Source: Anaerolinea thermolimosa (lineage in GTDB: Bacteria > Chloroflexota > Anaerolineae > Anaerolineales > Anaerolineaceae). Taken from it: a stretch of DNA of 53,070 nt. The notes beneath the pieces are model-generated. The model worked only from the letters and a program-made list of their open reading frames with translations. It did no database searches and was not told the origin of the DNA. The translations under genes and the position numbers were made by a program. This document shows, piece after piece, positions 1-49,807 of this stretch; positions within the stretch are counted from its first letter, which is position 1; each line of letters begins with the position of its first letter. The stretch spans positions 193,643 to 246,712 of the forward strand of contig NZ_DF967966.1 in the NCBI RefSeq assembly GCF_001050195.2, given 5' to 3'.

Positions 1-326
1 CTAGTCTCCAGCGCGGGGGTGGCGGTAGGAGCGGGGGTGACGATTGCCAGCAGCACGTCCTGCCCGACAATGAGGTCACAGGCTTCATTGAGCTTGTTCA
101 GGGTGCGCAACTGTTCCACTTTAACGCCGGTGAGGAGTTCGATGCGCAAACAGCTATCGCCGCTCTGCACTTTATAAAGAATGCGCCCCTGGGCATCGGG
201 GGTGGGCGTCTGGTAAACGGCCTGCCCTGGCAGGCTGGCCCGCGCAGGGGCCGTAAACGCCAGCGCCAATCCCAGGGCGAACACCCCGCCAAGAAGGATG
301 CATAAAAAGAGAGGCTTTCGAGTCAT
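1..326 (-). CDS. LysM-domain secreted protein, N-terminal part (runs off the left edge)
   Basis: An open frame reads from an ATG at 326 leftwards to the window edge without a stop (108 codons). Residues 1-30 form a signal peptide: basic start (MTRKP), a hydrophobic stretch and an A-R-A type cleavage site. A LysM module follows at about residues 48-89, beginning YKVQSGDSC, with the usual start-threshold-leaf pattern (L-R-I-E-L-L-T-G, then L-N-K-L-N-E). After it comes a T/P/A-rich linker of the kind that joins repeated LysM modules in Chloroflexota envelope proteins. LysM binds peptidoglycan or chitin-like glycans, so the protein probably sits outside the membrane. It starts 18 bases after the gnd stop. 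What lies beyond the edge is unknown. Confidence 0.75.
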   Translation of the reverse strand, partial: MTRKPLFLCILLGGVFALGLALAFTAPARASLPGQAVYQTPTPDAQGRILYKVQSGDSCLRIELLTGVKVEQLRTLNKLNEACDLIVGQDVLLAIVTPAPTATPALET

Positions 327-343
327 CTTTTTGATTATAACAC

Positions 344-1762
344 TCAAGCCGAACCCCATTCAGTGTGGAAGATGCCCTCGCGATCTACGCGGCGATAGGT
401 ATGGGCACCGAAGAAATCTCGCTGAGCCTGGGTGAGGTTGGCCGGCAGGCGCTCACTGCGGTAGGCGTCGTAATAGGCCAGGGCAGAAGAGAGCGCCAGG
501 GCCGGGATGCCCAGCTCGATGGCCGTCTGGACGACCCGGCGCAACGCGCCTTGCCGGGTTTCAACCGCTTCGCGGAAGGCATCGTCGAGGAGGAGGTTGG
601 TGAGGCCGGGGTTGCGGCGGTAGGCGTTGGTAATGTTGCCCAGCAAACTGGCGCGGATGATACAGCCTGCGCGCCAGATGCGCGCGATCTCGGCCAGGTC
701 GAAGTTGTACTGATATTCCTGAGAAGCGGTGCGCAACAGGCTCATCCCCTGGGCGTAGGCCAGCACCTTACCGGCGTAGAGCGCGGCGCGGGCGGCCTCG
801 ATGAGCTCGGAGCGGTTGCCGGTGTAATGGCCGGTGGGGCCGTGTAATACGCGGCTGGCGGCCACCCGTTCGGATTTCAAGCCGGAAAGGATGCGGCTCT
901 CGACGGCGGCGTTGATGGTGGGGATGGGAGCGCCGATATCGAAGGCGTTCTGACTCGTCCATTTGCCGGTGCCTTTCTGCTGGGCTTCATCGAGGATCAC
1001 ATCCACCAGCGGCTGCCCGGTCCATTCATCAACCCGGCGCAGGATGGCGGCGGTGATTTCGATCAGGTAAGAGCGCAGTTCGCCCTGGTTCCACGCGGCG
1101 AACACATCGGCCAGCTCTGCGGCTGAGAGGCCCGCGCCGCGGCTGAGCAGATCATAAATTTCGGCGATGAGCTGCATATCGGCGTACTCGATGCCGTTGT
1201 GCACGGTTTTGACGTAATGCCCCGCTCCGCGCGGCCCCATATACGCCACGCAGGGGGCGCCATCCTCTTCGGCTTTGGCGGCAATTTTCTCCAGGATGGG
1301 CCGCAGGGCTTCCCAGGATTCGCGGCTGCCTCCCGGCATGATGGAAGGCCCCCAGAGGGCGCCTTCTTCGCCGCCCGAAACCCCCATGCCCACAAAGTGA
1401 AATCCCTCAGCGGTAAGGGCCACGCTGCGGCGTTCGGTATCCAAAAAAAACGAATTGCCGCCATCGATGAGAATATCCCCGGGCTCGAGGTGGGGTTTGA
1501 TTTCTTCGATGACCCCGTCCACTGCGGCACCGGCGGTGACCATGAGTAAGATGCGGCGCGGGCGTTCCAGCTGTTCGACCAGGCTTGTGTATGAGTCGCT
1601 ACCGGTGATGCGCTTGCCAGCGGCTTCACCCTGTAAAAAGGCGTGCATTTTCGACTGTGTTTTGTTGTAAACGGCTACCGAAAAGCCATTCCGCTCGATA
1701 TTGAGTACCAGATTGCGGCCCATCACACCCAGGCCAACCAAACCGATGGAAGCTTTGGTCAT
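344..1762 (-). CDS. gnd: 6-phosphogluconate dehydrogenase, decarboxylating
   Basis: 472 residues, the usual full length. The N-terminus has the Rossmann pattern GLGVMGRN; the substrate and catalytic region reads GPRGAGHYVKTVHNGIEY, containing the Lys and the H-N-G-I-E-Y signature of the family, and the helical C-terminal dimer domain is complete. The enzyme oxidises 6-phosphogluconate to ribulose-5-phosphate and CO2 with NAD(P)+. The ATG follows a strong AAAGGAGGG ribosome binding site. It is the last gene of the hexuronate block, 109 bases after the larA-like gene, with a strongly folded leader in between. Its presence here, where one would expect uxuA/kdgK/eda genes, suggests that the block feeds 6-phosphogluconate. 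Confidence 0.95.
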   Translation of the reverse strand: MTKASIGLVGLGVMGRNLVLNIERNGFSVAVYNKTQSKMHAFLQGEAAGKRITGSDSYTSLVEQLERPRRILLMVTAGAAVDGVIEEIKPHLEPGDILIDGGNSFFLDTERRSVALTAEGFHFVGMGVSGGEEGALWGPSIMPGGSRESWEALRPILEKIAAKAEEDGAPCVAYMGPRGAGHYVKTVHNGIEYADMQLIAEIYDLLSRGAGLSAAELADVFAAWNQGELRSYLIEITAAILRRVDEWTGQPLVDVILDEAQQKGTGKWTSQNAFDIGAPIPTINAAVESRILSGLKSERVAASRVLHGPTGHYTGNRSELIEAARAALYAGKVLAYAQGMSLLRTASQEYQYNFDLAEIARIWRAGCIIRASLLGNITNAYRRNPGLTNLLLDDAFREAVETRQGALRRVVQTAIELGIPALALSSALAYYDAYRSERLPANLTQAQRDFFGAHTYRRVDREGIFHTEWGSA

Positions 1763-1778
1763 GGATGCCCTCCTTTGG

Positions 1779-1886
1779 CTTTCCCGGCTGGCTCGCTGAC
1801 GGGATGGATCAACCCAGGCAGGAGTGACCGGGAAAGAAATTATGAAGTAATAGGATTTCCAGAGCCAGCTTTTAGGTGGCTGGCTC
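1779..1886 (-). promoter_or_regulatory. Candidate RNA switch between larA-like gene and gnd
   Basis: In RNA sense (minus strand) the order is: A (GAGCCAGC, 1886-1879), the larA-like stop codon, B (GCTGGCTC, 1869-1862), C (CTTTCCCGG, 1836-1828), A' (GAGCCAGC, 1794-1787) and D (CCGGGAAAG, 1787-1779). The gnd ribosome binding site starts two bases later. A pairs perfectly with B, and C with D. B can also pair perfectly with A', which abuts D, so B:A' pairing competes with C:D. This is the layout of an attenuator or translation-coupling switch. It is read from the sequence only; no known riboswitch family was recognised. Confidence 0.45.
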
Positions 1887-3149
1887 CATTATACCGCCTT
1901 CGCGAAGGCGATAGAGAATTTCACCGGCGCGCGGGACGAGAAGCAGACCCTCTGCCTCACGCCCCTCCCATTCAGCAAGCTGAATCGATGCCGGGTCGAG
2001 GTATCCCAGATTAAGGCGGCGGCAACGTTCCTCAGGAATGCCAGTAGCCAGGGTTACCCGGATGCGGGGTGTCTCAATGCCGGTGGCGGCGTCGTATTGT
2101 CCTGCGCCTTTCACGTGGGTGGAATGCGCCAGGATGCCCCAGGGATAATCCTTGAAGCGTTCCCATTGCTTGAGGAAGTAATCGCGGGTGTGGTAGCCGA
2201 TTTCATCCAGAAGGGCGCCGTGGCTGTAACTGACCTCGCGGATATGGGGGGCGTAGATGATCACCTCACCGCCATCGGCCACCACCGGTTCCACTTTGTA
2301 CATGCCTTTAGCGGCAGTCCACAGATCGTCGTAGAGGGTGGGCATGACCGAAAGCACGCGCCGGAAGGGCTTTTCAACATACCGAATGTGCACCTGTGCC
2401 GAAAGCGCCGAGGCGCTTTGCCAGGCTTCCTGCGGGGTGCCGTAGAAACATCCGGCTACCCCTTCGTGGGTGACGACGAGGGCCAGGCAGGCCGCCGGTG
2501 TGGGGATGAAAGCCGCCGCGGCGTCGATCACGGCGCGCACCGGGGTTGGAGCGGTGCCGATGATGCGGCGGCTGGTGAGCATGGCCCCCAGCCAGTGAGT
2601 GAAGTGAATAATTTCGGGGCCGGCAATGCCCGGGAAGAAATACTTGTTCCCTCCCGAAAACCCAACCACCTCGTGAGGGAAGACTGGCCCCAGAATGAGC
2701 AGACGATCGTACTCCAGAACGAGGCGGTTGAGGCGTACGGGCACTTCCTGCGTAAAGAGGCCGCCCGTCAGCCTGTGGATGGTTTTGGCGGTGAGAGTGC
2801 CCAGATGGACGAAGGTGGAAGGCTCCATCCAGCCATGGTTGAAGACGCGCCCGGTGGGCAGAGTGCCCTGCACCACGGGAACGCCAAAATGCCGTGAAAG
2901 CGCGGCGTCATCCATAGGGCGGTGGGTGCCCAGAGCAATGAGGTAATCCATGGCGGCCACGCGCGGGGCGAGATGCCGCGCAAGGAGCGTGTGCATCTGC
3001 GGAAGCGGCATGGTGCGGGTGCCGTCTGGCACGATGACCAGCACGCGTCTACCGGTCAGGTCGAGGGCCTGAAGACCCTCGGCTACCACACCTTCCAGTT
3101 CGGCAGGAGAGAGGTATCGATCAGCGAATCCCAGGCCGGGAGGGTTCAT
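1872..3149 (-). CDS. LarA-family nickel-pincer racemase/epimerase (DUF2088), candidate sugar-acid C2-epimerase
   Basis: 425 residues, family length. LarA lactate racemase racemises 2-hydroxyacids with a nickel-pincer nucleotide cofactor bound to a lysine. The known key positions appear here: PDGTR (42-45) for the N-terminal nucleotide-binding motif, GTHRPM with His76 and Arg77, PHEVVGFSGGNK with His159 and Lys169, and His185. His159-Lys169-His185 have the same spacing as His174-Lys184-His200 of Lactiplantibacillus LarA. The ATG overlaps the preceding aldolase stop by four bases, so the genes are translationally coupled. The superfamily is known to include malate, phenyllactate and 2-hydroxyglutarate racemases and a D-gluconate 2-epimerase. 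In this uronate operon, epimerising D-mannonate to D-gluconate is the most economical guess, but it is inference. The cofactor genes larB, larC and larE are not in the window. Confidence 0.8.
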   Translation of the reverse strand: MNPPGLGFADRYLSPAELEGVVAEGLQALDLTGRRVLVIVPDGTRTMPLPQMHTLLARHLAPRVAAMDYLIALGTHRPMDDAALSRHFGVPVVQGTLPTGRVFNHGWMEPSTFVHLGTLTAKTIHRLTGGLFTQEVPVRLNRLVLEYDRLLILGPVFPHEVVGFSGGNKYFFPGIAGPEIIHFTHWLGAMLTSRRIIGTAPTPVRAVIDAAAAFIPTPAACLALVVTHEGVAGCFYGTPQEAWQSASALSAQVHIRYVEKPFRRVLSVMPTLYDDLWTAAKGMYKVEPVVADGGEVIIYAPHIREVSYSHGALLDEIGYHTRDYFLKQWERFKDYPWGILAHSTHVKGAGQYDAATGIETPRIRVTLATGIPEERCRRLNLGYLDPASIQLAEWEGREAEGLLLVPRAGEILYRLREGGIMEPAT

Positions 3150-3904
3150 GCGGCACCTTTCAGATCTTTGAGCAGGTTACTCAGGGCGGTGTTGAGGAGG
3201 AGCGTGTCGGTGGAACAGGCGACCATGGAGAAGCCCTTTTCCATGGCCCAGCGAGCGCCGGTTGGATCGCCCATAAAGATGCCGCACGGGCGGGCTCTTT
3301 CCTGGCAGACCTGCACCACATGCTCAATGGCTGCCCGCACTTCGGGGTCGTCGGTAAAGCCGGGCTTGCCCATGCTGGCTGAAAGATCAAACGGCCCTAC
3401 CAGCACTCCGTCGATGCCGGGCACCTGGAGAATACCCTCCAGGTTCTGGACTGCCTGAATGTGCTCGATCTGCGCAATGACGGTGGTGTACTGATTGGCA
3501 GTATCCACATAGACGCGGAAGTTCTGCCCGTAGCGGTGTGCCCGCCCCACCCCCACACTGCGCCTCCCGGCGGGTGGGTACTGGGCGTGCTGTGCCACCC
3601 GTGCGGCTTCTTCGGGGGTGTTTACCATGGGGACGATGATACCGGCCACGCCCAGGTCGAGGGTTTTCTTGATCCACACAGAAGAGGAAGAAGGCAGCCG
3701 CGCCAGGCAGGCGCAACGCGGCCCGGCGGCCATGGCCATGCGCTGAACAGCGGCGAAGTCGAGCAGGCCGTGTTCCATATCCAGAAAGAGCCAGTCAAAG
3801 CCCGCCTGGGCGGCCATTTCGGCGATTTCGGGCAGGGGCAGGCTGAGGACAATCCCCAGCAGTTTCTCGCGGCGTAAAAATTTGGATTTAAAAGCGGCAT
3901 TCAT
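3146..3904 (-). CDS. HpcH/HpaI-family aldolase (2-keto-3-deoxy sugar acid aldolase type)
   Basis: 252 residues, normal for the class II pyruvate aldolases (HpcH, GarL, YfaU). The family core is visible: FLDMEHGLLD near the start with the catalytic His, QIEHIQAVQNLEGI with the metal-binding Glu, and GVLVGPFDLSASMGKPG with the metal-binding Asp. Such enzymes cleave 2-keto-3-deoxy acids to pyruvate and an aldehyde using a divalent metal. It begins six bases after the SDR gene stop, behind a GGAGTG, and overlaps the larA-like start by four bases. In a uronate operon it could cleave 2-keto-3-deoxygluconate or a related acid. That would need a mannonate or gluconate dehydratase, which is not seen in the window. 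Confidence 0.85.
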   Translation of the reverse strand: MNAAFKSKFLRREKLLGIVLSLPLPEIAEMAAQAGFDWLFLDMEHGLLDFAAVQRMAMAAGPRCACLARLPSSSSVWIKKTLDLGVAGIIVPMVNTPEEAARVAQHAQYPPAGRRSVGVGRAHRYGQNFRVYVDTANQYTTVIAQIEHIQAVQNLEGILQVPGIDGVLVGPFDLSASMGKPGFTDDPEVRAAIEHVVQVCQERARPCGIFMGDPTGARWAMEKGFSMVACSTDTLLLNTALSNLLKDLKGAA

Positions 3905-3910
3905 GGGATG

Positions 3911-4744
3911 CTACACTCCACTGTATGCAAGGAATCCGCCATCCACAGGGATGACCGTGCCGGTGACGAAACGCGCGGCAGGAGAAGCCAGCCAGAGAGC
4001 CGCACCTACCAGGTCGGAGGGGTCGCCAAAGCGGCCCATGGGGGTGTGGCTGATGATGGCCTGGCCGCGGGGCGAAAGCTCACCGGTTTCGGGGTTGGTG
4101 AGGAGGAAGCGGTTCTGGCGGGTGAGGAAAAATCCCGGCGCGATGGCGTTAACGCGAATTTCAGGGGAGCATTCGCGGGCCATATAGACGGCCAGCCATG
4201 CCGTAAAGTTGCTCACCGCGGCCTTGGCGGCGCCGTAGGCCACCACGCGGGTGAGGGGACGAAAGGCCGTCATGGAAGAAATGTTGATGATGACCCCTTT
4301 TTGTTGCTGTGCCATTTGCCGCCCGAAGATCTGGCAGGGATAGAGCGTGCCCATCAGGTTAAGGTCAAACACTGCAGCAAGGGCGTCGGCGGGGAGGTCG
4401 AAGAAAGAGAGATCGGGGGCGGTGGCGGCGCGGGGCTGGTTGCCCCCGGCGCCATTGAGGAGAATATCCACTGCGCCGAAGGTGCTTACCACGGCATGGC
4501 AGGCTTCTTCCAGGGATGGACGGTCGAGTACGTCGCAGTGGAAGGCGGCGGCCTGCCCTCCGGTGGCCTGAATTTCGTCCACCAGCGCTCTGGCGGCATC
4601 CATGGAGCGCGCCAGAATGGCCACCCTGGCTCCGGCGCGGGCGTAGGCGCGGGCCAGTTCACTGCATAGCACACCGGTAGCGCCGGTGATGGCCGCCACC
4701 TGGCCTTCGAGGGAGAAGAGAGAAGTGAGATAGGCAGTGTCCAT
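3911..4744 (-). CDS. uxuB: SDR-family D-mannonate oxidoreductase (fructuronate reductase)
   Basis: 277 residues from the ATG at 4744, preferred over an in-frame TTG at 4756 because a GAGG lies at the right distance. It is a short-chain dehydrogenase with TGATGVLCSE as nucleotide-binding motif, NGAGGNQ at the position of the NAG motif, catalytic Ser in INISSMTAF and YGAAK for Tyr-x-x-x-Lys. The C-terminal part, with the insertion around TRQNRFLL and the end GTVIPVDGGFLAYSGV, resembles the Bacillus-type mannonate oxidoreductase rather than the long-chain proteobacterial UxuB. It would reduce D-fructuronate to D-mannonate with NAD(P)H, the step after UxaC. It starts eight bases after the uxaC stop. 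A related 2-keto sugar-acid reductase activity cannot be excluded. Confidence 0.82.
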   Translation of the reverse strand: MDTAYLTSLFSLEGQVAAITGATGVLCSELARAYARAGARVAILARSMDAARALVDEIQATGGQAAAFHCDVLDRPSLEEACHAVVSTFGAVDILLNGAGGNQPRAATAPDLSFFDLPADALAAVFDLNLMGTLYPCQIFGRQMAQQQKGVIINISSMTAFRPLTRVVAYGAAKAAVSNFTAWLAVYMARECSPEIRVNAIAPGFFLTRQNRFLLTNPETGELSPRGQAIISHTPMGRFGDPSDLVGAALWLASPAARFVTGTVIPVDGGFLAYSGV

Positions 4745-4752
4745 GATGAACC

Positions 4753-6192
4753 TCAATTCAGAGTAGCAGGGGGCTGTTCCAGCCGGTAGGCCCGGCGCGG
4801 GAGATCGTAGGCCAGTTCGCGGGCCATTTCAAGGGCTTCATCGTTGCCGATGAAGCCGCGCACAAGCAGGCCGGCCAGCCAGTTGGCCACGGCGCGCCGC
4901 CACAGATCGTGGCGGGCGGGGATGGAGAGGAAGGCGCGTGTGTCGTCATTGAAGCCCACAGTATTATAAATACCTGCGGTTTCCATCACCTGGTCAAAAT
5001 ACCGGCGCATGCCGTTCCAGGAATCGTGGAACCACCAGGGCGGGCCAAGGCGGAGGGCCGGGTAAACCCCTGCCAGCGGGGCCAGCTCACGCGCATAGGT
5101 GGTTTCGTCGAGGGTGAAGAGGATGAGCGTGAGGCGAGGGTCGGTGCCGTAGCGGGCCAGCAGCGGGCGCAGGTTGTGGGTAAATTCGGTCTGCACGGGG
5201 ATATCATAGCCACGGTCGCGGCCAAAACGGGCGAGGGTATCGGGGTGGTGATTGCGGAACGAGCCGCAATGCACCTGCATCACCAGGCCGTCCTCGCAAG
5301 ACATGCGCGCCATTTCCATGAGCATGTGTGCGGTAAAGCGGGGGGCATCGCCGGGTTGAAGCTGGCCCTGGAGGGCGCGCTGGAAGATGGCCCCGGCCTC
5401 TTCTTCGGACAGAGACGCCGTTTGGGGCTGGAAGACGCCGTGATCGGTGGCAACGGCGCCCAGCTGGCGGAAGGCCAACCGGCGGGCTTTCAGCGCGGTG
5501 AGGAAGGAGGCATAATCGCCGATGGCCACACCGCTGGCATGGCTGAGAGCTTCGATCTGGGCATGCCAGTTTTCGGTGTCGAGGTTCACAACGGCATCGG
5601 GCCGGAAGGTAGGAATGACTCGCCCCGGCCACCCTGAGGCGCGAAGGGCGCGGTGAGCATTCAGGGGATCAGAGGCCGAGTCGGTAGTGGCGAGGACTTT
5701 GATGTTGAACTTTTCGAAGAGGGCACGTGGACGGAACTCGGGAGAAGCCAGGCGCTCGACAATCTGGTCGTAGATGCGTGCGGCATTGTGAGCGGTGAGC
5801 TGTTCTTCGATGCCGAGGACAAATTTAAATTCGTAGGCCAGCCACAGTCCCGAAGGTGTGCCGCGAAAGAGGTGAAAGTGATCGGCGAAGAGCTGCCAGA
5901 TGCGGCGATGATCGCGCTCTACCGGTGAACCATCGACGGAGGGCACCCCCAGGCTTTCCAGGGGAACGCCCTGCGAATGGATCATGCGGAAGACGTAATG
6001 ATCGGGGATAACCAGTAAATCGGCGGGGGTGCCGAAGGAGGCGTGAGGGTCGGCAAAAAGAGCCGGGTCAACGTGCCCGTGAGGGCTGATGATAGGGAGG
6101 TTTTGAATGCTGTGGTAGAGGTTGAGTGCGGCGCGGCGGGTGGCCGGCTCGGGATCGAAACAGCGATCTTCAGGTAAATTCCAGGTCGTCAC
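4753..6192 (-). CDS. uxaC: Glucuronate/galacturonate isomerase
   Basis: 479 residues, usual size for UxaC of the amidohydrolase fold. Recognisable parts are ISPHGHVDP with the metal-binding HxH near residue 39, LATTDSASDPL in the middle, MQVHCGSFRNHHP and VGFNDDTRAFLSIPARHDLWRR near the C-terminus. The enzyme isomerises D-glucuronate to D-fructuronate (and D-galacturonate to D-tagaturonate). The start is a GTG at 6192 with GGAGGG just upstream; a promoter with TTGACA is found at 6222-6250. It is the first gene of the hexuronate operon. No transporter or uronidase is in the window, so the source of the uronate is not shown. Confidence 0.95.
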   Translation of the reverse strand: MTTWNLPEDRCFDPEPATRRAALNLYHSIQNLPIISPHGHVDPALFADPHASFGTPADLLVIPDHYVFRMIHSQGVPLESLGVPSVDGSPVERDHRRIWQLFADHFHLFRGTPSGLWLAYEFKFVLGIEEQLTAHNAARIYDQIVERLASPEFRPRALFEKFNIKVLATTDSASDPLNAHRALRASGWPGRVIPTFRPDAVVNLDTENWHAQIEALSHASGVAIGDYASFLTALKARRLAFRQLGAVATDHGVFQPQTASLSEEEAGAIFQRALQGQLQPGDAPRFTAHMLMEMARMSCEDGLVMQVHCGSFRNHHPDTLARFGRDRGYDIPVQTEFTHNLRPLLARYGTDPRLTLILFTLDETTYARELAPLAGVYPALRLGPPWWFHDSWNGMRRYFDQVMETAGIYNTVGFNDDTRAFLSIPARHDLWRRAVANWLAGLLVRGFIGNDEALEMARELAYDLPRRAYRLEQPPATLN

Positions 6193-6221
6193 GGGAGAAA
6201 CCCTCCGGAGGGGATGCTACT

Positions 6222-6250
6222 ACTATGCCCGAAAAGCAAAGGCGTGTCAA
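6222..6250 (-). promoter_or_regulatory. Promoter of the uxaC operon
   Basis: On the minus strand TTGACA (6250-6245) is followed after 17 bases by CATAGT (6227-6222). Transcription would start near 6215, about 23 bases before the uxaC GTG. The -35 box is perfect and the -10 box matches four of six positions. Confidence 0.6.
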
Positions 6251-6344
6251 GCGCAGTACACAGAGAAAACAACCCTGCAGCGGGTGTGCCGGATTCCTCT
6301 GAAACTCATGCCTTTTTTCAGGATGGCATTTTCATGATTTATAG

Positions 6345-6377
6345 TACAATAATTTCGCAGAAAAAGACAACGTTGTC
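6345..6377 (+). promoter_or_regulatory. Possible -10 box and LacI-type palindrome upstream of the methyl-transfer module
   Basis: TACAAT at 6345-6350 could be a -10 element for the genes starting at 6411. Just downstream lies a perfect 12-base palindrome GACAACGTTGTC (6366-6377) with the central CG typical of LacI-family operators. It lies in the divergent region between uxaC and the methyltransferase gene and could act on either side. No regulator gene is nearby. Confidence 0.35.
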
Positions 6378-6410
6378 ATAATGCAAAGGATGCCGCCTGG
6401 AGGGCTTGAG

Positions 6411-7298
6411 ATGATCTCTTCACGATTCTTCGATTTGTTGCATTCCGGCAAACCGGTGGTTCTGGATGGAGCCACGGGGACAAACCTCCAGGCGCGCGGG
6501 TTGCCCACAGGCACCCCTTCGGATGTGTGGGTGCTGGATAACCCTGCCGAGGTGATCCGCCTGCACCATGATTTCATTACCGCCGGGGCTGAGGTGATTC
6601 TCACCAACACGTTTGGCTCCAGCCGGTTGCATCTGGCCCATGCGGGGCTGGATGCACGTTTTGAAGAAACCAACCGCACTGCGGTAGCCCTCGCCAGGCA
6701 GGCCGCCGCGGGCAGTGAGGTGCTGGTGGCCGGTTCACTCGGGCCGCTGGGCGAGATGCTCGAACCGGCGGGAACGTTGAGCGCCGAAACTGCCGCACAG
6801 GTTTACGCCGAACAGGCGCGTCTGCTGGCCGAGGCCGGGGTAGACTTGCTGGTGATTGAAACCCAGTTTGACCTGAACGAAGCCCTGGCCGCTGTGCGGG
6901 GGGTGAAGTCGGTGACGGATCTGCCGCTGGTGTGTTCCTTCAGTTACGACCGCGGTACCCGCACCATGATGGGCCTGCGCCCGGCGCAGGCTGCCCAGGC
7001 GCTTGCAGGGGCGGGCCTGGCGGCGATCGGGATTAACTGCGGGCGTAGCCTGGAAGATAACCGCAGAGCGCTGGACGAGTTACGCGCGGCGACCGATCTG
7101 CCCATCTGGTTCAAGCCTAACGCAGGACTGCCCCACAGCGATGCCGAAGGGCGCATGATCTACGATGTGACCCCGGCGATGATGGGTGAGCAGGTGGCCG
7201 GGTGGGTGGCCGGTGGGGCGGTGCTGGTGGGCGGTTGCTGTGGCACCTCTCCCGAACACCTGCGGGCAATTGCAGAGGCGGTCAGGAAGGTGGCATGA
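6411..7298 (+). CDS. Homocysteine S-methyltransferase-domain protein (MetH N-terminal module, stand-alone)
   Basis: 295 residues from the ATG at 6411, chosen over an in-frame ATG at 6381 because GGAGGG (6399-6404) is correctly spaced for it. The fold is the zinc-dependent homocysteine methyltransferase barrel: VLDGATGTNLQARG near the start, ETQFDLNEA in the middle, and zinc ligands Cys210 (INCG) and Cys276-Cys277 (GGCCGTSP). In MetH this module moves a methyl group from methylcobalamin to homocysteine. Here it stands alone and overlaps by four bases with a RACo-type activator gene, followed by a separate corrinoid protein. The three genes probably act as a split methyltransferase. The folate-binding module of MetH is missing, so the methyl donor is unknown. 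Confidence 0.88.
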   Translation: MISSRFFDLLHSGKPVVLDGATGTNLQARGLPTGTPSDVWVLDNPAEVIRLHHDFITAGAEVILTNTFGSSRLHLAHAGLDARFEETNRTAVALARQAAAGSEVLVAGSLGPLGEMLEPAGTLSAETAAQVYAEQARLLAEAGVDLLVIETQFDLNEALAAVRGVKSVTDLPLVCSFSYDRGTRTMMGLRPAQAAQALAGAGLAAIGINCGRSLEDNRRALDELRAATDLPIWFKPNAGLPHSDAEGRMIYDVTPAMMGEQVAGWVAGGAVLVGGCCGTSPEHLRAIAEAVRKVA

Positions 7299-9118
7299 AC
7301 CAGATCACCGTCACCCTGCAACCGGTAGGACGGCGCATTGTCATCGAGCGCGGGGCAACCCTTCTGGAGGCGGCCCAGCGCGCCGGGGTAGAAATGGTGG
7401 CCTCGTGCGGCGGGATGGGGGTGTGTTCTACCTGCAAGGTGCGATTGATCCAGGGCAGGGTAACCCCGCCGGTGGAGACGGAGCTTGAGGAACTGGGGGA
7501 AGAATTAATCCGTGCGGGTTACCGCCTGGCCTGCCAGACAGAGCCTCTGGAAGATGTACGGGTGGAGATTCCCCCCGAGTCGCTGGTGGCGGGGCAGTCG
7601 TTACAGGTGGAAGGGCGCGAAGGCCGGGTAAACCTCGATCCGCCAGTGGTGGCCATCGACCTGCAACTGATGCCCCCCAGCCTGGATGATTTACGCTCAG
7701 ATCTGACGCGGGTGAACGCCGTTCTGCAGGAGAGGGGGCTGGGGCCGCTCGCCGCCGGGCCGCGGTTGCTGGGGGCGCTTTCACAACAACTGCGCCAGGA
7801 AAACTGGCAGGTGCGTCTGGCTGTGCGCCGCGAAGGGGAGGCTTCGGGGCTGGTCTCGGTGCTGCCGCGGGGAGCCCGCCTGGTGGGCCTGGCCATGGAT
7901 CTTGGTTCGACCAAGCTGGCGCTCTTTCTGGTTGACCTTGAAAGCGGTGCTTTGCTGGCCCAGACCGGGGTGATGAACCCGCAGATCAGCTTCGGCGAGG
8001 ACGTGGTCAGCCGCATTGCTTACGCCAACCGTGGGGAAGAACAGCGAAAACAGCTTCAGACGCGCCTGGTGGAGATCATCAACCAGACTCTGACCGAACT
8101 ATGCCAGCGCGAAGGACTCTGTGCCGACCAGATAGTGGATGTGGTGGCCGTGGGCAACACGGCCATGCACCATCTGTTTGCCGGGTTGCCGGTGGCTCCG
8201 CTGGGACATGCCCCTTATACCCCGGTAGTGAGTGAGCCGATGAACTTTCCGGCGGCAGAGATTGGCCTGCAGGTGGCGCCCGGGGCACAGATTTACCTGC
8301 CGCCAAACATTGCCGGTTATGTGGGGGCCGATCATGTGGCGGCGTTGATCGCCACGCGGTCTTATCTGGCGGCGGGGCGCACGGCTCTTCTGGTGGATAT
8401 CGGCACGAATACCGAGATCAGCCTGATCCACAGGGGGCAGATTTACGCCTGTTCCTGCGCTTCGGGGCCGGCATTTGAAGGAGCGCACATTCACGATGGT
8501 ATGCGCGCCGCGCCGGGGGCTATCGAGCGGGTGCACCTTGCGGAGGGGCAGGTGCGGGTGGTGACCATCGGGGGGCAGGCGCCGGTGGGCATCTGCGGGT
8601 CGGGCATCCTTAACGCGGTGGCCGAATTGCTGGATGCCGGAGTGATCGATGCGCGCGGGGTACTGCGAGCCGCTCACAGCCGGGTGCGCCCGGCTAACGG
8701 GAAGGCCGAATTTGTGCTGGCAGATACCACCGAAACGGCTCACGGGCGCGAGATTGTGGTGACGCGTAAAGATGTGAATGAAATTCAACTGGCCAAGGGC
8801 GCCATTCGCGCCGGGCTGGAGATTTTACTGAAAGAGGCAGGGATCCCGGCAGAGCAGGTGGAAGACTTCATCGTGGCGGGGGCGTTCGGCACCCATCTCG
8901 ACCTGGCAAGCGCCCTGCGGGTGGGGATGTTCCCAACCCTGCCGCTGGAGCGCTTTCATCAGGTGGGGAATGCAGCCGGGGTGGGCGCGCGCCAGATGCT
9001 GCTTTCACGCGGGTTGCGCCAGGAGGCGGCAGAGGTTGCCCGGGAAGTCACCTACATTGAGCTAACCACCCGGCCCGATTTCACCCCTACGTTTGTGGAG
9101 TGCATGTATTTTACATGA
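7295..9118 (+). CDS. Corrinoid activation protein, RACo type ([2Fe-2S] plus ASKHA ATPase domain)
   Basis: 607 residues from the ATG at 7295, which overlaps the previous stop (ATGA); a longer frame from 7202 runs inside the upstream gene and is unlikely. Residues 1-95 are a plant-type [2Fe-2S] ferredoxin domain with Cys38, Cys44, Cys47 and Cys80. After a linker region comes the large C-terminal ASKHA-like domain, with phosphate-binding patterns MDLGSTKLALF and LLVDIGTNTEISL and the motif CSCASGPAFEGAHI. RACo proteins reduce oxidised Co(II) corrinoid back to Co(I) at the expense of ATP. Its partners here are the neighbouring corrinoid protein and methyltransferase. It replaces the AdoMet-dependent reactivation domain of MetH. 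Confidence 0.9.
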   Translation: MNQITVTLQPVGRRIVIERGATLLEAAQRAGVEMVASCGGMGVCSTCKVRLIQGRVTPPVETELEELGEELIRAGYRLACQTEPLEDVRVEIPPESLVAGQSLQVEGREGRVNLDPPVVAIDLQLMPPSLDDLRSDLTRVNAVLQERGLGPLAAGPRLLGALSQQLRQENWQVRLAVRREGEASGLVSVLPRGARLVGLAMDLGSTKLALFLVDLESGALLAQTGVMNPQISFGEDVVSRIAYANRGEEQRKQLQTRLVEIINQTLTELCQREGLCADQIVDVVAVGNTAMHHLFAGLPVAPLGHAPYTPVVSEPMNFPAAEIGLQVAPGAQIYLPPNIAGYVGADHVAALIATRSYLAAGRTALLVDIGTNTEISLIHRGQIYACSCASGPAFEGAHIHDGMRAAPGAIERVHLAEGQVRVVTIGGQAPVGICGSGILNAVAELLDAGVIDARGVLRAAHSRVRPANGKAEFVLADTTETAHGREIVVTRKDVNEIQLAKGAIRAGLEILLKEAGIPAEQVEDFIVAGAFGTHLDLASALRVGMFPTLPLERFHQVGNAAGVGARQMLLSRGLRQEAAEVAREVTYIELTTRPDFTPTFVECMYFT

Positions 9119-9160
9119 TCGTTTAACCCCATTCATTTTGAGAGAGGAGATGAATCATTC

Positions 9161-9796
9161 ATGGACGAGAAGCTGAAAGCGATTTACCAATGTATTGTCG
9201 AAGGCGACAACAACGGTGTGCAGGAGCACGTCCGGGCGGCGCTGGAGAGTGGGATGGACGCGGGAACCATCCTCAATGAGGGGCTGATTGCCGGTATGGC
9301 CGAGGTGGGGCGCCTGTTTGAGGAAGGGGAGTATTTTGTGCCAGAAATGCTCATCTCGGCGCGCGCGATGAAGAGCGCCATGGCCATCCTCAAGCCGCAT
9401 CTCACCTCAGAGCAGGTGGGATTTGCCGGCCGGGTGGCGATTGGCACGGTGAAGGGCGACCTGCACGACATTGGCAAGAACCTGGTCGGCCTGATGCTGG
9501 AAGGGGCGGGCTTCCAGGTGATTGACCTGGGATCGGATGTGGCGCCTGAGAAGTTCGTCGAGGCGGCGAAGAACAACGATGTCGATATCGTGGCCATGTC
9601 GGCGTTGCTCACGACCACCATGGTCAACATGAAATCCACCATCGCCGCATTGGAGGAAGCCGGTGTGCGCGAAAAAGTAAAGGTGATGATTGGCGGCGCG
9701 CCGGTGACCGAGGCCTACGCCAGGCAGATTGGCGCCGATGGTTACGCTCCGGATGCCAGCCGGGCGGTGGCTCTGGCCAAGTCACTGCTTTCGTAA
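9161..9796 (+). CDS. Methyltransferase corrinoid (B12-binding) protein
   Basis: 211 residues, the size of MtaC/MtbC/MttC-type corrinoid proteins. Residues 1-85 are the helical cap; the Rossmann-like B12 domain follows. It has the base-off motif DLHDIG with Asp100, His102 and Gly105 (lower cobalt ligand His102), then SALL around 147-150 and GGAPV near the end. A GAGAGGAG ribosome binding site precedes the ATG. It shuttles the methyl group as methyl-Co(III) between an unknown donor enzyme and, by context, the homocysteine methyltransferase at 6411-7298. Cobalamin supply fits the riboswitch-controlled uptake operon at 22.7-26.0 kb. Confidence 0.92.
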   Translation: MDEKLKAIYQCIVEGDNNGVQEHVRAALESGMDAGTILNEGLIAGMAEVGRLFEEGEYFVPEMLISARAMKSAMAILKPHLTSEQVGFAGRVAIGTVKGDLHDIGKNLVGLMLEGAGFQVIDLGSDVAPEKFVEAAKNNDVDIVAMSALLTTTMVNMKSTIAALEEAGVREKVKVMIGGAPVTEAYARQIGADGYAPDASRAVALAKSLLS

Positions 9797-26012: not shown

Positions 26013-27431
26013 CTAATCTGTCTTTCTTGCGCGGGGGGTCTTTTTGGCCTGCGCCGGAGCCACGTAGGCCGGGGCCAGAATGCCAAAGAAAGTGCACAGG
26101 CGCGTGTCGAGCATGCGGCTGCGGATGCGCGGGTCGAGTTCATCCAGGCGGCTGGCGGTGGTGATCACGGTGGGGAGCTCGGCGGTATAACGGTGATTGA
26201 AGATCTGGTACAGCTTTTCGCGTGCCCACGGCGAGGCATTCTGAGTGCCCAGATCATCGAGAATGAGCAGGCGCGCTGATCGAACTTCCTCGAACACCTC
26301 GTCATACGAGACTGTGCTGTTCGGGCTGAAGGTCGAGCGCAGGTGATCCAGCAGGTCTGGAACCACCACAAAAATAGGCGGTTGCCCCCGGCTTGCCTGG
26401 TAGTTGCCAATCGCCGCTGCCAGGTGCGTCTTGCCACAACCATAAGTTCCCGAAAAAACCAGCCAGCCGCGCGGATTTTCGGCAAAGGTCTGCGCCAGCT
26501 GGAAGGCCTTTTCCAGGTTGGCGCGCTCTTCAGGAGAGAGTTTCTCACGCTCGCGCATATTGAAGCTTCCAAAGGTCATGCGGCTGTAGAGGGGGAGCGC
26601 CGAAAGACGCGGCTGGGTGGTATCTACCAGCGGCTGACGGTAATCCTGAGCGTTGATCTTCACCATCGTCACCAGTTCGGGGTCGCGCAGGCGCGATTGA
26701 ATGCGCCCTTCGATCTCTTCCAGGGGCTGGTTGGTGGTCACCACAGTGGGCAGGCGGTTGACGTACCGGTGGTTAAAAATTTGATACAGTTTTTCCTGGG
26801 CCCACGGGGTGGCATTCTGCGTGCCCAGGTCATCCATCACCAGCAGTGCAATATTGCGGATTTCTTCAAAGCGGGTTTCAAAATCTTCGTCCAGAGCCCC
26901 GTAGGCGTAACGCAGCCAGTCGAGCAGGTCGGGTACGGTAAGGAAGAGGGTTGGCACCCCCATGCTGACCGCGAAATTGGCAATCGCCGCCGCCAGGTGA
27001 GTCTTCCCTACTCCGTAGGCTCCGGTCAACAGCAGCCATCCCGAAAGCGTGCGCGCAAAGGTTTGTGCCTGGTCGAAGGCATACTTCAACGAACGTACCT
27101 GCTCATCTCCCAGCCCCACGCGCCCCTGCACCTTGAAGGTCTCAAAGGTCATCCCGCTGAAGGCCGTCAGGTTGCTCAATCGATAGACCCGCTGATAGGC
27201 CATGCGCGCCACTTCCTGCGCCCGGCAGCTACAGATTTCCACCTTGCCAAAATCGGGGTGGTCAATGGGCACATCGCGCCTGACGAAGCCCACTCCCCGA
27301 CAAATCGGGCAGTTGGGGTCGCCGGGAAGGCTTTTCGAAGCCGCCGCCTCAGTGTTCGATGAAGTCGGCGAACTCTCCTTCGACATACCTGCGGCGATCT
27401 TTCGCAGAGTCTCGTCGATTGGTTTCGTCAC
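26013..27431 (-). CDS. Helicase-loader-like ATPase with two tandem AAA+ domains and a zinc motif
   Basis: 472 residues. An N-terminal CPIC...CSC motif (Cys41, Cys44, Cys67, Cys69) resembles the zinc-binding region of DnaI/DnaC-type loaders. Two full DnaC-like AAA+ domains follow. Domain 1 has Walker A GAYGVGKT (137-144), Walker B LLVMDD (196-201) and sensor TTNQ; domain 2 has GTYGCGKT (328-335), LLILDD (388-393) and sensor TTAS. Long stretches match between the copies (DDLGTQNA-PWA-EKLYQIFNHRY), so this is an internal duplication. The GTG start has AGGAGGAAGG upstream and lies 83 bases inside the DnaD-like gene. Context suggests loading of DnaB at the origin. IstB was considered, but no transposase is present. 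Confidence 0.9.
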   Translation of the reverse strand: MTKPIDETLRKIAAGMSKESSPTSSNTEAAASKSLPGDPNCPICRGVGFVRRDVPIDHPDFGKVEICSCRAQEVARMAYQRVYRLSNLTAFSGMTFETFKVQGRVGLGDEQVRSLKYAFDQAQTFARTLSGWLLLTGAYGVGKTHLAAAIANFAVSMGVPTLFLTVPDLLDWLRYAYGALDEDFETRFEEIRNIALLVMDDLGTQNATPWAQEKLYQIFNHRYVNRLPTVVTTNQPLEEIEGRIQSRLRDPELVTMVKINAQDYRQPLVDTTQPRLSALPLYSRMTFGSFNMREREKLSPEERANLEKAFQLAQTFAENPRGWLVFSGTYGCGKTHLAAAIGNYQASRGQPPIFVVVPDLLDHLRSTFSPNSTVSYDEVFEEVRSARLLILDDLGTQNASPWAREKLYQIFNHRYTAELPTVITTASRLDELDPRIRSRMLDTRLCTFFGILAPAYVAPAQAKKTPRARKTD

Positions 27432-28029
27432 GTCCTTCCTCCTGCCACGATTTTAAAATGGCCTCAATATATTTCCAGCGGCGCACGTTCTTCTCCACCG
27501 CAATTTTAAAAGCCTCTTCGATCCACGCCTGCGGGTAGGTCTGCTCGGCCTCCTGCAACACTTCCCCGATCAGAGGGGTGAGCGGCCCGATGTTTTGCTC
27601 ATAAAGGCGGAAAATGTTGGGGCGTTCCACCTCCAGTGAAACCCCCGCCCGTTCCCCTTCCAGCGGGTTCCATTCTCCGCGGTGAATGGCCTGCACTGCC
27701 GCCCGCCCACGCGGGCTGTTGAGGAAGTACAGCGCCTCTTCCCCAGCGTCCTTCACCGTCACCCGCAGAAACGTGCCGCGCTGAACCGCCCGTTCGAGAG
27801 CGTCCTTCAGCCCTTCTTCACCCAGGTCTTTCAACAGACGCGCTTCATCGGTAAAATCTTTATACGTCAGAAACCGCACCTTCCCTTCCATGCGTTCCAG
27901 AAACCACAACGCATACAGGGTGACCTTCAGCTCGGCCAGGGTATCGATCTCGGGTAACAGATCGCTGAAAAACTGGGCCGGCAGGCGCGTCAGGCGCATT
28001 TTGCCGTCGGTAAAGCCTGCAAAGGGCAT
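27349..28029 (-). CDS. DnaD-domain replication protein
   Basis: 226 residues. The N-terminal half (about 1-120) is compatible with a winged-helix domain (LTRLPAQFFSDLLPEIDTLA); the C-terminal half is a clear DnaD/DnaB-type domain: RLYEQNIGPLTPLIGEVLQE, then AWIEEAFKIAVEKN and WKYIEAILKSW, the YxxxIxKxW-like signature. In Firmicutes DnaD remodels origin DNA and recruits the helicase with its loader. Its ATG shares one base with the dnaB stop (TGATG), and its end overlaps the loader gene by 83 bases, so dnaB, dnaD-like and loader genes form one tight replication-initiation operon. Confidence 0.88.
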   Translation of the reverse strand: MPFAGFTDGKMRLTRLPAQFFSDLLPEIDTLAELKVTLYALWFLERMEGKVRFLTYKDFTDEARLLKDLGEEGLKDALERAVQRGTFLRVTVKDAGEEALYFLNSPRGRAAVQAIHRGEWNPLEGERAGVSLEVERPNIFRLYEQNIGPLTPLIGEVLQEAEQTYPQAWIEEAFKIAVEKNVRRWKYIEAILKSWQEEGRDETNRRDSAKDRRRYVEGEFADFIEH

Positions 28030-30686
28030 CAGCGCCGACCTCCGGGCAGCTGCGCGGCGTTTTCAAAGCGCGCCAGGTTGTTCAAGAAGACCAGTTCAAT
28101 CCCGCCGTGGGTTGGGCCATTGCGATGTTTGGCCACGATGATCTCGGCCAGATTGGCCCGCGGGTTATCTTTCTCCAGCGCATCGGGGCGATGAATGAAC
28201 ATCACCACATCGGCGTCCTGTTCCAGGCTGTTATGGACAATAATGTTATTGGCCACAAAATTATGATGTTGTGGAACCGTCAAATCATATACCGGTTCTT
28301 CGCCAGTAAAATCGATTGCAACCACCGCATCCCAATATACTTCGCTGTTTGCCAGTGCAGTCAACTTTTCTGAATGGAGAACATTTGCAAGACGGCTTGC
28401 TCTGATTCGGCTGATATTTTGTTTGTAGAGTGCTGTTCCACAGTAGGCGTTTCCAATGCTCGCCTGCAATTGACGGCTGGTAATTCCCTCGCTTTGCATA
28501 GCTGGAACAACCACCTGCCTCCACACACCGGCTGGAATTATGTCCCGATTGGTGTTAGCGACACGGTTTTGAATATAGTCGCAAACTTCCCGCAGTCGGC
28601 GTTCCCGGTAAGCGCCTACTGCCCCAATTTTTTCAGCAAAAAGGGTCAAATCGGGTTTCCCGGTAATGACCACGTTCCACTGATCCATCCCTTTACCATT
28701 TTGAGGAACACGCCTCAACAGAGCATTAATCCCTAAGCGGAGCAGGAGCGATTGAACATCCCGGGCCAATTGCTCACTACTGGATGCGTAGTAGGCGATA
28801 GCTCTGGTCCTCTTTCCCCGCGTTAATTGGATACTTCCATCGGTTGCCCATAAATAGCGTAAAAATAAGGCAATAGAATGCTCGGATTGGGAGAAAACAA
28901 TCGGCGGAACGAATTTTTCTGAAGAACGGAGGTTAAAAATACCCAATTCTTTCAACCAATCGGTCACCGGGCTGTGTACGCCATGGGTATGATGTCTTTT
29001 TGAAGTGAAAAATACCTGTAACCACGAATTTTGCGCCTGAATGCGCGGCTCAATTTGATCAGGGAAAACCGTCTGAGCAAGCCGCACGGCTTCCTGCGCT
29101 AAATCCAGTTCACCCGTGGTAAACTGATGAGCATGATGGGCAAGTATACAGCCATCCCCCAATAACAGCCCCAAGAAGGCCAGTTCCTCTTCACGTAAAG
29201 AAGAGTGGGAAGAGGCGGGGACTATCCGCGGCAGAGCAATCTTATCCCCAGGGGTTAATTCATCCAGCCGTTTCCATCCGTCCAATGTCAAGAAACGGTG
29301 ATTGGCAGTGGCTTCGATGCACCTGCCCAGAGCAGTGGTCAATCGCCATACTTTTTTTATTCCGGTTTCGAATGCTCTGCTAACTGGCACTGCTTCGAGT
29401 TTGAAAGTGGTCTCGTTTAATGCCCAGACATAGAAACCGCTCTTGCCAGCCAGTTCTCGAATGGGAACTTCCTCACCGCTTTCTGCAAGGGTGATGCGAG
29501 TGTTTCCTGTGAGGCAACCGCTCTCGCGCAAATCAGAAAGCACCGGTCTTTTATCGGCGCGCTGTTCCACCGCGCGCGAAAGCTGGGCGGCGGCCAGCAC
29601 CGGCACGTTCAACTCGCGGGCCAGCACCTTTAAATTGCGCGAAATATAGGAAACCTCCTGCACACGGTTATCGGTGCGCAGGTCGCCGCTCATCAATTGC
29701 AGATAATCTACGATGATCAGATCCAGTTCGTATTCCATGTGAAGGCGGCGGCACTTGGTGCGCAACTGCATGGGGGTGATGGCAGGGGTATCGTCCAGGT
29801 AAATGTGGGTGTCGGCCAGCACTTCAATGGCGTGGGTGAAGAGCGGCCACTCCTCTTCGGTTAACTTCCCGGTGCGCAGGCGCTGGGTGTCGATGCCCGT
29901 TTCCTGGGCAATCAGGCGTTGAACCAGCTGCTCGTTCGACATTTCCAGAGAGAACATGGCCACGTGTTTCTTATACTTCTGTGCGGCGTTCTTCATCACC
30001 GAAAGCATGAAACCCGTCTTCCCCATTCCGGGGCGCCCGGCTACGATCAGCAAATCCGATTTCTGCAGTCCGCCGAGCAGACGGTCGAGATCGGTTAAAC
30101 CGGTGGGCACCCCCATAATTTCATCGGTGCGCTGTGAAAGCTGATCGATACGGTCGTAGACATCGCTCAGCACCTGTTGAATGGGTTGCAGGTCGTGCCG
30201 AACGCGCCGCTCGCTGATTGAGAAGATCTTCTTCTCCGCTTCATCGATCACCGTATCGATGGATTGCTTCTGGTTGTACGCCAGTTGCGCCAGCTCATTG
30301 GCGGCATTCAACATGCGCCGCCGCAGAGAGTGCTCCTCCACGGTGTGCGCGTAGGCCTCTACGTTCAAGGCTGAAGGTGTCTGGTTGATCAGGGAAAGCA
30401 GGTAGGCCTGCCCGCCCACCTCTTCCAGCTGTCCCTGTTGCTCCAGTTCCTGAGAGACGGTCAGATAATCGATGGCAATGCGCTTCTCATGCAGGCGGGT
30501 GAAGGCTTCCCAGACCCAGCGGTTGCGCACGATGTAAAAATCTTCGCCCTTGAGGAACTGAGAAACCGTAAAGTACGCCTCAGGGTTGATCAGCACAGCG
30601 CCCAGCACGGCTTCTTCGGCCTGCCGGTTGTGGGGCGGGGCCTGGACTTCGGAAACGGGAATTTCTTCAGGATAAATGTCGCTCAT
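28029..30686 (-). CDS. dnaB: Replicative DNA helicase DnaB, interrupted by an intein
   Basis: 885 residues encoded; 456 remain after removal of a 429-residue intein, a normal DnaB size. The N-terminal collar domain includes PPHNRQAEEAVLGAVLINPE. The RecA-like domain has Walker A GRPGMGKT (217-224), Walker B LDLIIVDYLQLM and PVLAAAQLSR. The intein follows SDLRESG (Cys391 to Asn819), and the protein resumes at Ser820 with SLEQDADVVMFIHRP. DnaB unwinds DNA at the replication fork as a hexamer, so growth needs splicing. The ATG has no Shine-Dalgarno and a TGCTAGAAT lies 12 bases upstream, suggesting a leaderless or very short leader transcript. Operon with dnaD-like and loader genes. Confidence 0.97.
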   Translation of the reverse strand: MSDIYPEEIPVSEVQAPPHNRQAEEAVLGAVLINPEAYFTVSQFLKGEDFYIVRNRWVWEAFTRLHEKRIAIDYLTVSQELEQQGQLEEVGGQAYLLSLINQTPSALNVEAYAHTVEEHSLRRRMLNAANELAQLAYNQKQSIDTVIDEAEKKIFSISERRVRHDLQPIQQVLSDVYDRIDQLSQRTDEIMGVPTGLTDLDRLLGGLQKSDLLIVAGRPGMGKTGFMLSVMKNAAQKYKKHVAMFSLEMSNEQLVQRLIAQETGIDTQRLRTGKLTEEEWPLFTHAIEVLADTHIYLDDTPAITPMQLRTKCRRLHMEYELDLIIVDYLQLMSGDLRTDNRVQEVSYISRNLKVLARELNVPVLAAAQLSRAVEQRADKRPVLSDLRESGCLTGNTRITLAESGEEVPIRELAGKSGFYVWALNETTFKLEAVPVSRAFETGIKKVWRLTTALGRCIEATANHRFLTLDGWKRLDELTPGDKIALPRIVPASSHSSLREEELAFLGLLLGDGCILAHHAHQFTTGELDLAQEAVRLAQTVFPDQIEPRIQAQNSWLQVFFTSKRHHTHGVHSPVTDWLKELGIFNLRSSEKFVPPIVFSQSEHSIALFLRYLWATDGSIQLTRGKRTRAIAYYASSSEQLARDVQSLLLRLGINALLRRVPQNGKGMDQWNVVITGKPDLTLFAEKIGAVGAYRERRLREVCDYIQNRVANTNRDIIPAGVWRQVVVPAMQSEGITSRQLQASIGNAYCGTALYKQNISRIRASRLANVLHSEKLTALANSEVYWDAVVAIDFTGEEPVYDLTVPQHHNFVANNIIVHNSLEQDADVVMFIHRPDALEKDNPRANLAEIIVAKHRNGPTHGGIELVFLNNLARFENAAQLPGGRR
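28230..29516 (-). mobile_element. Full-length DnaB intein with LAGLIDADG homing endonuclease
   Basis: Encodes residues 391-819 of the dnaB product. It starts CLTGNTRITLAESGEEVPI (Cys391), has the B block TANHRFLTLDGWKRLDEL (His463) and ends DLTVPQHHNFVANNIIVHN with penultimate His and terminal Asn819, followed by Ser820. The ends and insertion site match the Synechocystis-type DnaB intein between RESG and S-x-EQDAD. An endonuclease domain lies between: LAFLGLLLGDGC (Asp511) and FLRYLWATDGS (Asp616) are the two LAGLIDADG helices with their acidic residues intact. The DNA is visibly poorer in G+C than the flanking extein, which points to horizontal arrival. All splicing residues are present, so it should be active. 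Confidence 0.96.
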
Positions 30687-49600: not shown

Positions 49601-49756
49601 GGGAACTCCGTGGAATATGTACCTATAGCGTGGACAGACTTCCCCCTGAGAAAGCCATCCTTCGTCACAGGCGATCAATGGCGTTGCTGTCCGTTTCTGT
49701 ATCCGAGTATAGCACAACATCTGCGGTGCTGAAGGCTGCCGGAAAGCCCCCCTGCC

Positions 49757-49782
49757 TTTCAAATTTCTGGTATGATTTGAAA
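49757..49782 (+). promoter_or_regulatory. Extended -10 and overlapping inverted repeat upstream of rarD
   Basis: TGGTATGAT (49768-49776) is an extended -10 for the gene at 49808. A perfect 8-base inverted repeat, TTTCAAAT (49757-49764) and ATTTGAAA (49775-49782), spans it and would place a bound regulator over the polymerase site. Confidence 0.4.
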
Positions 49783-49807
49783 TTATTCTTTTTAAGAGAG
49801 CCAACCC

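Follow-up and report, generated by a model that had tools for sequence, protein, structure and literature searches.

Hexuronates are classically degraded along the route UxaC-UxuB-UxuA-KdgK-Eda. This pathway through 2-keto-3-deoxygluconate (KDG) is also described in PMC6978723, which recounts a second route, by way of gluconate, that Rodionova proposed for Thermotoga maritima in 2012. The UxaR regulon of T. maritima holds gnd-uxaE-uxaD-gntE-gntK, beside a kdgA-kdgK-uxuB-uxuA operon (PMC3750489). GntE2, a LarA homologue, was shown in 2020 to act on D-mannonate, probably admitting it to the pentose phosphate pathway (PMC7583248). We analysed a stretch of 53,070 nucleotides from Anaerolinea thermolimosa (contig NZ_DF967966.1, positions 193,643 to 246,712; the window hereafter), where a minus-strand operon at 344-6192 carries uxaC, a gene of the short-chain dehydrogenase/reductase (SDR) family, an aldolase gene, a larA-like gene of gntE type, and gnd. 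We take it to be a hexuronate catabolic operon of the T. maritima type, with a probability of about 0.8. The operon very probably converts glucuronate first to gluconate and from there to pentose phosphate, the epimerase involved being nickel-dependent. A preliminary description of the window had announced a new hexuronate route; since both the T. maritima route and its epimerase are published, what we describe is instead the known route in a new host.

The five genes lie head to tail, and the list of open reading frames (ORFs) and the Pfam and NCBIfam models confirm the gene content given in the preliminary description. The first, uxaC (4753-6192), encodes a glucuronate/uronate isomerase of 479 amino acids that scores 510 bits on NF002794 (cut-off 387) and is the sole PF02614 match in the genome. 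It is followed by the SDR gene, for a D-mannonate oxidoreductase, or fructuronate reductase (3911-4756; 281 amino acids; NF006132 375 bits, cut-off 281), and by that of an HpcH/HpaI-type 2-keto-3-deoxy-acid aldolase (3146-3904; 252 amino acids; Pfam HpcH_HpaI, PF03328, 121.5 bits, cut-off 25). Then come the larA-like gene, for a predicted nickel-pincer D-mannonate/D-gluconate 2-epimerase (1872-3149; 425 amino acids; Lar_N 84.5 bits, cut-off 23.3), and gnd (344-1762), for a decarboxylating, NADP-dependent 6-phosphogluconate dehydrogenase of 472 amino acids (TIGR00873 678 bits, cut-off 426.7). By gene order, the operon thus unites the Thermotoga-type set of uronate isomerase, fructuronate reductase, gntE and gnd.

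On ORF starts that were chosen mechanically, and on which all overlaps and spacings depend, uxaC overlaps the SDR gene by 4 bases and the aldolase gene overlaps larA by 4 bases, while 6 bases separate the SDR and aldolase genes and 109 bases separate larA from gnd. The genes from uxaC to gnd are presumably co-transcribed. A perfect 8-base inverted repeat, read by eye, spans the larA stop codon on the minus strand ahead of gnd (1862-1886), and a pattern scan called no terminator there. Pattern scanning also placed a promoter-like site upstream of uxaC (6250-6222, 10 of 12 positions); over 1-6600 on both strands it counted 5 such sites versus 1.7 in shuffles.

The identity of the epimerase carries most of the argument. 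Its best sequence match in the Protein Data Bank (PDB) is 4nar (T. maritima Q9WYS3; 226.6 bits), the protein identified as GntE2 (LarAH20) in PMC7583248, and the next, a lactate racemase, reaches 33.6 bits. Identity to GntE2 is 35% (135 of 391 aligned residues). An AlphaFold model built with 24 aligned sequences (pLDDT 93.4) matches 4nar with a Z score of 50.0 at 2.0 Å over 403 residues; the next family member gives Z 35.8. Beyond the LarA family the structure comparison shows no conspicuous match, which does not prove that there is none. The catalytic and cofactor residues of LarA are D72, R75, H108, H174, K184, H200 and K298 (PMC7583248), and alignment to the LarA numbering finds equivalents of all seven (Asp42, Arg45, His76, His159, Lys169, His185 and Lys281). 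Five residues had been listed before: His76, His159, Lys169 and His185 are indeed functional ones, but Arg77 is not the cofactor arginine, which is Arg45, and Asp42 and Lys281 had been overlooked. The GntE signature published as E, V, A, H (PMC11770544) appears as Glu160, Val161, Ala341 and His342; in GntE2 the second of these is Ser. Common to both proteins are the seven cofactor and catalytic residues, Glu160, Trp277 and the pair Ala341-His342, and at each of these positions 135 of 137 homologue rows agree, the other two being gapped. The rows come from 137 of 138 loci (L170 yielded none), with some genes counted twice, loci having been fetched by several routes.

NF052594, the model for a nickel-dependent putative hexonate epimerase (LarAH18 group), gives the A. 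thermolimosa protein 179.4 bits, below the curated cut-off of 500. The assayed GntE2 reaches just 188.4 bits on it (411 of 435 residues), so this cut-off omits proven GntEs and we did not use it to define GntE. Three further LarA-family genes in the genome are 27%, 23% and 22% identical to the operon gene by best local alignment, and their products lack the GntE-loop Glu. Lactate or malate racemase was considered as the function and rejected, the corresponding structures and models scoring far lower and the recognition loop differing. The nearest relative, the modelled fold and the signature together support the earlier proposal of a mannonate/gluconate C2-epimerase, and on this comparison of sequences and models a D-mannonate/D-gluconate 2-epimerase of the GntE type is the likely identity of the protein.

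The nickel-pincer cofactor genes that such an enzyme calls for are in the genome (4.17 Mb in 6 contigs, 99.99% complete, 4.69% contaminated): larB, larE and larC are adjacent at 1002445-1005062 of contig G000:C1, and there is a second LarE-family gene. A lack of cofactor genes, which the preliminary description had named as grounds for refutation, is therefore not what the genome shows, and this counts in favour of the proposal. As to the kinase, the preliminary description had named a GntK-type gluconokinase at 51440-52957. The gene, on the minus strand, is the best gluconokinase candidate among those scored, but it belongs to the FGGY carbohydrate kinases and falls short of the curated score. 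Its best NCBIfam model is TIGR01314, with 396 bits against a cut-off of 648.55; on the same model 7 of the other 10 FGGY matches in the genome were scored and gave 138-278 bits, so that the comparison covers 8 of the genome's 11 FGGY matches, all within this one kinase family. Its nearest PDB entry is the gluconate kinase 3gbt (287 bits, next 181). Judged by these scores it is a candidate for the gluconokinase of the pathway.

In the proposed pathway UxaC would convert D-glucuronate to D-fructuronate, which the SDR would reduce to D-mannonate. The GntE-type LarA protein, with a nickel-pincer cofactor supplied via larB-larE-larC, would invert C2 by transient hydride transfer and so form D-gluconate. 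Gluconate would then be phosphorylated to 6-phosphogluconate by a gluconokinase, for which the FGGY kinase is the likeliest candidate, and Gnd would decarboxylate the product to ribulose 5-phosphate. The substrate, the direction of flux and the role of the kinase are the parts that we infer.

Relatives keep much of this arrangement. A LarA search at 1e-20 found matches in 144 of 298 genomes of the host class, of which 136 were kept as orthologues once eight hits with a best E above 1e-30 had been dropped as weak; contig ends reduce some of these 136 to fragments. We fetched 40 of the 136 neighbourhoods, chosen by coordinate to lie well inside contigs although some still reach contig ends, and applied a 100-bit threshold. 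An SDR gene is near larA in 26 of the 40, always on the same strand and in 25 cases upstream, and gnd in 16, always downstream on the same strand. Also found near larA are uxaE (12 of 40; recognised via Pfam PF16257 in one representative), uxaC (9 of 40) and an FGGY kinase gene (3 of 40). Among 69 loci from named genomes, which include Acidobacteria, Verrucomicrobia, Planctomycetaceae, Ktedonobacterales, Nostoc and Paractinoplanes, the SDR gene was found in 35, gnd in 20, uxaE in 14 and uxaC in 9 (7 on the same strand); one or more of these accompany larA in 44 of the 69, many of which end at contig ends. The combination SDR-gntE-gnd thus recurs across several phyla, and with it many LarA homologues that have yet to be assayed gain a function that can be tested.

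Co-occurrence over the 298 class genomes was assessed by Fisher's test, ignoring kinship. For uxaC, it is present in 73 of the 136 genomes with a larA orthologue versus 42 of the 162 without (p 1.5e-6), and the neighbourhoods in relatives link larA with the SDR gene, gnd, uxaE and uxaC. With larC, larA is only weakly associated (80 of 136 versus 68 of 162, p 0.005). The operon's aldolase has no such following: at 70 bits it was found in none of the 40 class neighbourhoods, and in none of the 69 loci from named genomes, and no curated aldolase equivalog model reached its cut-off in the NCBIfam scan. Found in the A. thermolimosa operon only, it may serve a side branch.

The direction of flux is suggested by genomes in which the usual supply of 6-phosphogluconate seems to be missing. 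No zwf was found in 6 of the 16 genomes with gnd in the larA neighbourhood versus 3 of the 24 others, small numbers on which no statistical test was made. One of these genomes from the same family (G253; one contig, 99% complete) and one from the same order (G164; 99% complete) each carry larA, SDR, uxaC and gnd inside a 17-kb span, and neither zwf nor PF01081 was found in either. As zwf was not found there, the substrate of Gnd probably does not come via glucose 6-phosphate dehydrogenase, which favours gluconate. More generally, 6-phosphogluconate in gnd-bearing genomes without zwf is probably derived from another source, such as gluconate.

Several results weigh against our reading or narrow it. 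In 9 of the 40 neighbourhoods none of SDR, gnd, uxaC and uxaE is near larA. PF01081 is in 101 of the 136 genomes with a larA orthologue versus 84 of the 162 without (p 7.5e-5), and zwf in 105 of 136 versus 106 of 162 (p 0.03). A role for the route as a replacement for the KDG route, which we considered, is at odds with this co-occurrence of larA orthologues with PF01081; as larA is tied to the absence of neither zwf nor PF01081 over the 298 genomes, the route would add to others. The A. thermolimosa genome itself has two UxuA homologues, of which one passes the NF003027 cut-off and one does not, two Eda homologues that both pass the cut-off of TIGR01182, and one zwf. The candidate kinase lies 45 kb from the operon, below its curated cut-off. 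Finally, 53 of the 136 orthologue-bearing genomes show neither LarB (NF033503) nor LarC (PF01969), a point taken up below. Gnd is the only copy found in the genome (one PF00393 match), and as the sole 6-phosphogluconate dehydrogenase found beside a zwf it must also have its ordinary job; for the same reasons a dedicated Gnd paralogue, another possibility considered, was rejected.

These genes also bear on the idea of uronate use without KDG. The preliminary description had noted that uxuA, kdgK and eda are missing from the window, and no PfkB kinase, UxuA or Eda is among 39 window proteins scanned with Pfam, a set to which one further predicted gene and small ORFs would add; the genome's UxuA and Eda matches all lie outside the window. 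With such homologues elsewhere in the genome the idea is weakened. A uxuA-kdgK-eda set elsewhere had been named as the finding that would count against the route: UxuA and Eda homologues do exist, but no co-located set was seen, and no genome-wide search for kdgK was made. Read by eye, the UxuA genes and the Eda genes are at separate places, each surrounded by unrelated kinds of gene. On the KDG kinase model (cut-off 400) a PfkB kinase encoded close to one Eda gene reaches 68 bits, and the three genes beside the Eda gene of locus L171 had no NCBIfam match at 1e-15. One mannonate-dehydratase-like (UxuA family) gene, at 8062-9069 of locus L040, sits amid glycan-degradation-like genes, with no uronate genes beside it by eye.

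Three other explanations were weighed; they exclude neither one another nor our reading, so that their odds need not sum to one. The operon might feed the KDG route, either by itself or in parallel with the gluconate route, with UxuA encoded elsewhere, the HpaI aldolase or Eda performing the cleavage, and LarA linking gluconate to mannonate in the reverse direction. The UxuA and Eda homologues, the 2-keto-3-deoxy-acid-type aldolase within the operon, and the example of T. maritima, which runs both routes under one regulator (PMC3750489), are what this explanation can draw on. We nevertheless think it improbable, with the UxuA and Eda genes lying separately among other genes, gnd standing downstream of larA in all 16 class loci that have it near, and G253 and G164 keeping larA, SDR, uxaC and gnd together while showing neither PF01081 nor zwf. 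Phosphorylation might instead come before epimerisation, as reported for Lactobacillus suebicus: a kinase would form 6-phosphomannonate and the epimerase 6-phosphogluconate, with end product and Gnd step identical to those proposed here. Extracts of L. suebicus showed measurable mannonate kinase and 6-phosphomannonate epimerase activity, and a gene homologous to T. maritima gntE, detected in cells grown on galacturonate, was left as a possible 6-phosphomannonate 2-epimerase (PMC6978723); the FGGY kinase near larA in 3 of the 40 class loci would also suit this order. However, the epimerase gene of L. suebicus is not established, the excerpted text of that paper does not mention LarA, and GntE2, the closest assayed relative, uses free D-mannonate with a kcat of 197 per second, though with a KM of 17 mM (PMC7583248). 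Since the recognition residues of the A. thermolimosa protein match those of GntE2, we give this order of steps only a small chance.

The third explanation concerns the enzyme rather than the order of steps: the LarA protein may epimerise a different hexonate or an aldarate, its position beside gnd being without functional meaning. Genomic context is not always predictive in the LarA superfamily, the KM of GntE1 for mannonate is poor (PMC7583248), and identity to GntE2 is just 35%. Yet the recognition residues are those of assayed GntEs, apart from Val/Ser and Ala/Gly differences from GntE2, the adjacent SDR is modelled as a mannonate oxidoreductase, and linkage to SDR and gnd is repeated in several phyla, all of which makes a different substrate unlikely. 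A Thermotoga-type route with a GntE-type epimerase acting on free mannonate accordingly remains our preferred reading.

The orthologues from genomes without LarB and LarC deserve separate treatment, as they bear on possible salvage of the nickel-pincer cofactor, or an alternative way of making it. Among the 136 orthologue-bearing genomes, LarB occurs alone in 3 and LarC alone in 10. Neither is found in 38 of the 96 such genomes at least 90% complete, nor in 23 of the 60 at least 95% complete. Over all 298 genomes detection is consistent, with both in 132, LarB alone in 6 and LarC alone in 16. A quick tree of 57 rows unites 12 epimerases, all of them from LarB-less, LarC-less genomes, in one group (SH-aLRT 95); a more careful tree of 54 rows, without long branches, keeps this group with bootstrap 95, a value not fully settled, and SH-aLRT 91. 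The remaining 13 rows of this origin are dispersed over the tree, giving 11 changes of state in all. The cofactor residues are kept in all 12 grouped epimerases. If these epimerases are active without LarB and LarC, the cofactor would come from other organisms or from a second route. We put forward only tentatively that GntE-type epimerases with a conserved nickel-pincer site, in genomes without recognisable LarB and LarC, take up the cofactor or obtain it from a different synthesis; it is possible that divergent LarB or LarC proteins were overlooked. The opposite case, larB, larE and larC without larA, is mentioned in PMC11796402, and a search of the open-licence PMC literature for phrases such as 'lacking LarB' returned one unrelated paper only. 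With all three genes present, the A. thermolimosa genome is not of this kind.

The window holds several other genes of note. Divergent from uxaC, a corrinoid methyl-transfer set at 6381-9796 comprises a homocysteine S-methyltransferase-family gene, a RACo-type corrinoid reductive activase and an MtgC-like corrinoid protein, a homologue of which also lies beside the larA cluster in locus L146. A DnaB replicative helicase with an intein and a LAGLIDADG domain is encoded at 28029-30686 (Pfam DnaB, Intein_splicing and LAGLIDADG_3), and a tandem pair of IstB-like ATP-binding stretches occupies one ORF at 26013-27431. One long ORF at 44616-46973 joins an Rce1-like CAAX-protease domain to an alpha/beta hydrolase, and the aminoglycoside-modification-like gene at 48734-49804 encodes a predicted member of the streptomycin adenylyltransferases (394 bits on Pfam Adenyl_transf).

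Among the literature matches listed, no title concerned this route in the host class; a sponge Chloroflexi paper among them, PMC6306507, contains the words glucuronate and gluconate. Compared with the classical KDG pathway, the first two steps are common to the A. thermolimosa operon, whereas the lower steps lie outside it, with UxuA and Eda homologues scattered in the genome. In the galacturonate route of L. suebicus, too, mannonate carbon reaches 6-phosphogluconate and Gnd, but there it passes through a mannonate kinase and a 6-phosphomannonate 2-epimerase whose gene is not established in that work (PMC6978723). The epimerase resembles GntE2 in fold (Z 50), catalytic and cofactor residues, the Glu of the recognition loop and the Ala-His pair, and differs from it in having Val for the loop Ser and Ala for the Gly preceding the catalytic lysine. 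Unlike the T. maritima UxaR regulon, the A. thermolimosa operon includes uxaC, has an HpaI-type aldolase gene between the SDR gene and larA, shows no uxaE, and has its candidate kinase 45 kb away. Both would reduce fructuronate, rely on a LarA homologue to epimerise C2 and so yield gluconate, and employ Gnd, with gnd and gntE in one uronate locus, and on this likeness the route known from Thermotoga would extend to a new host.

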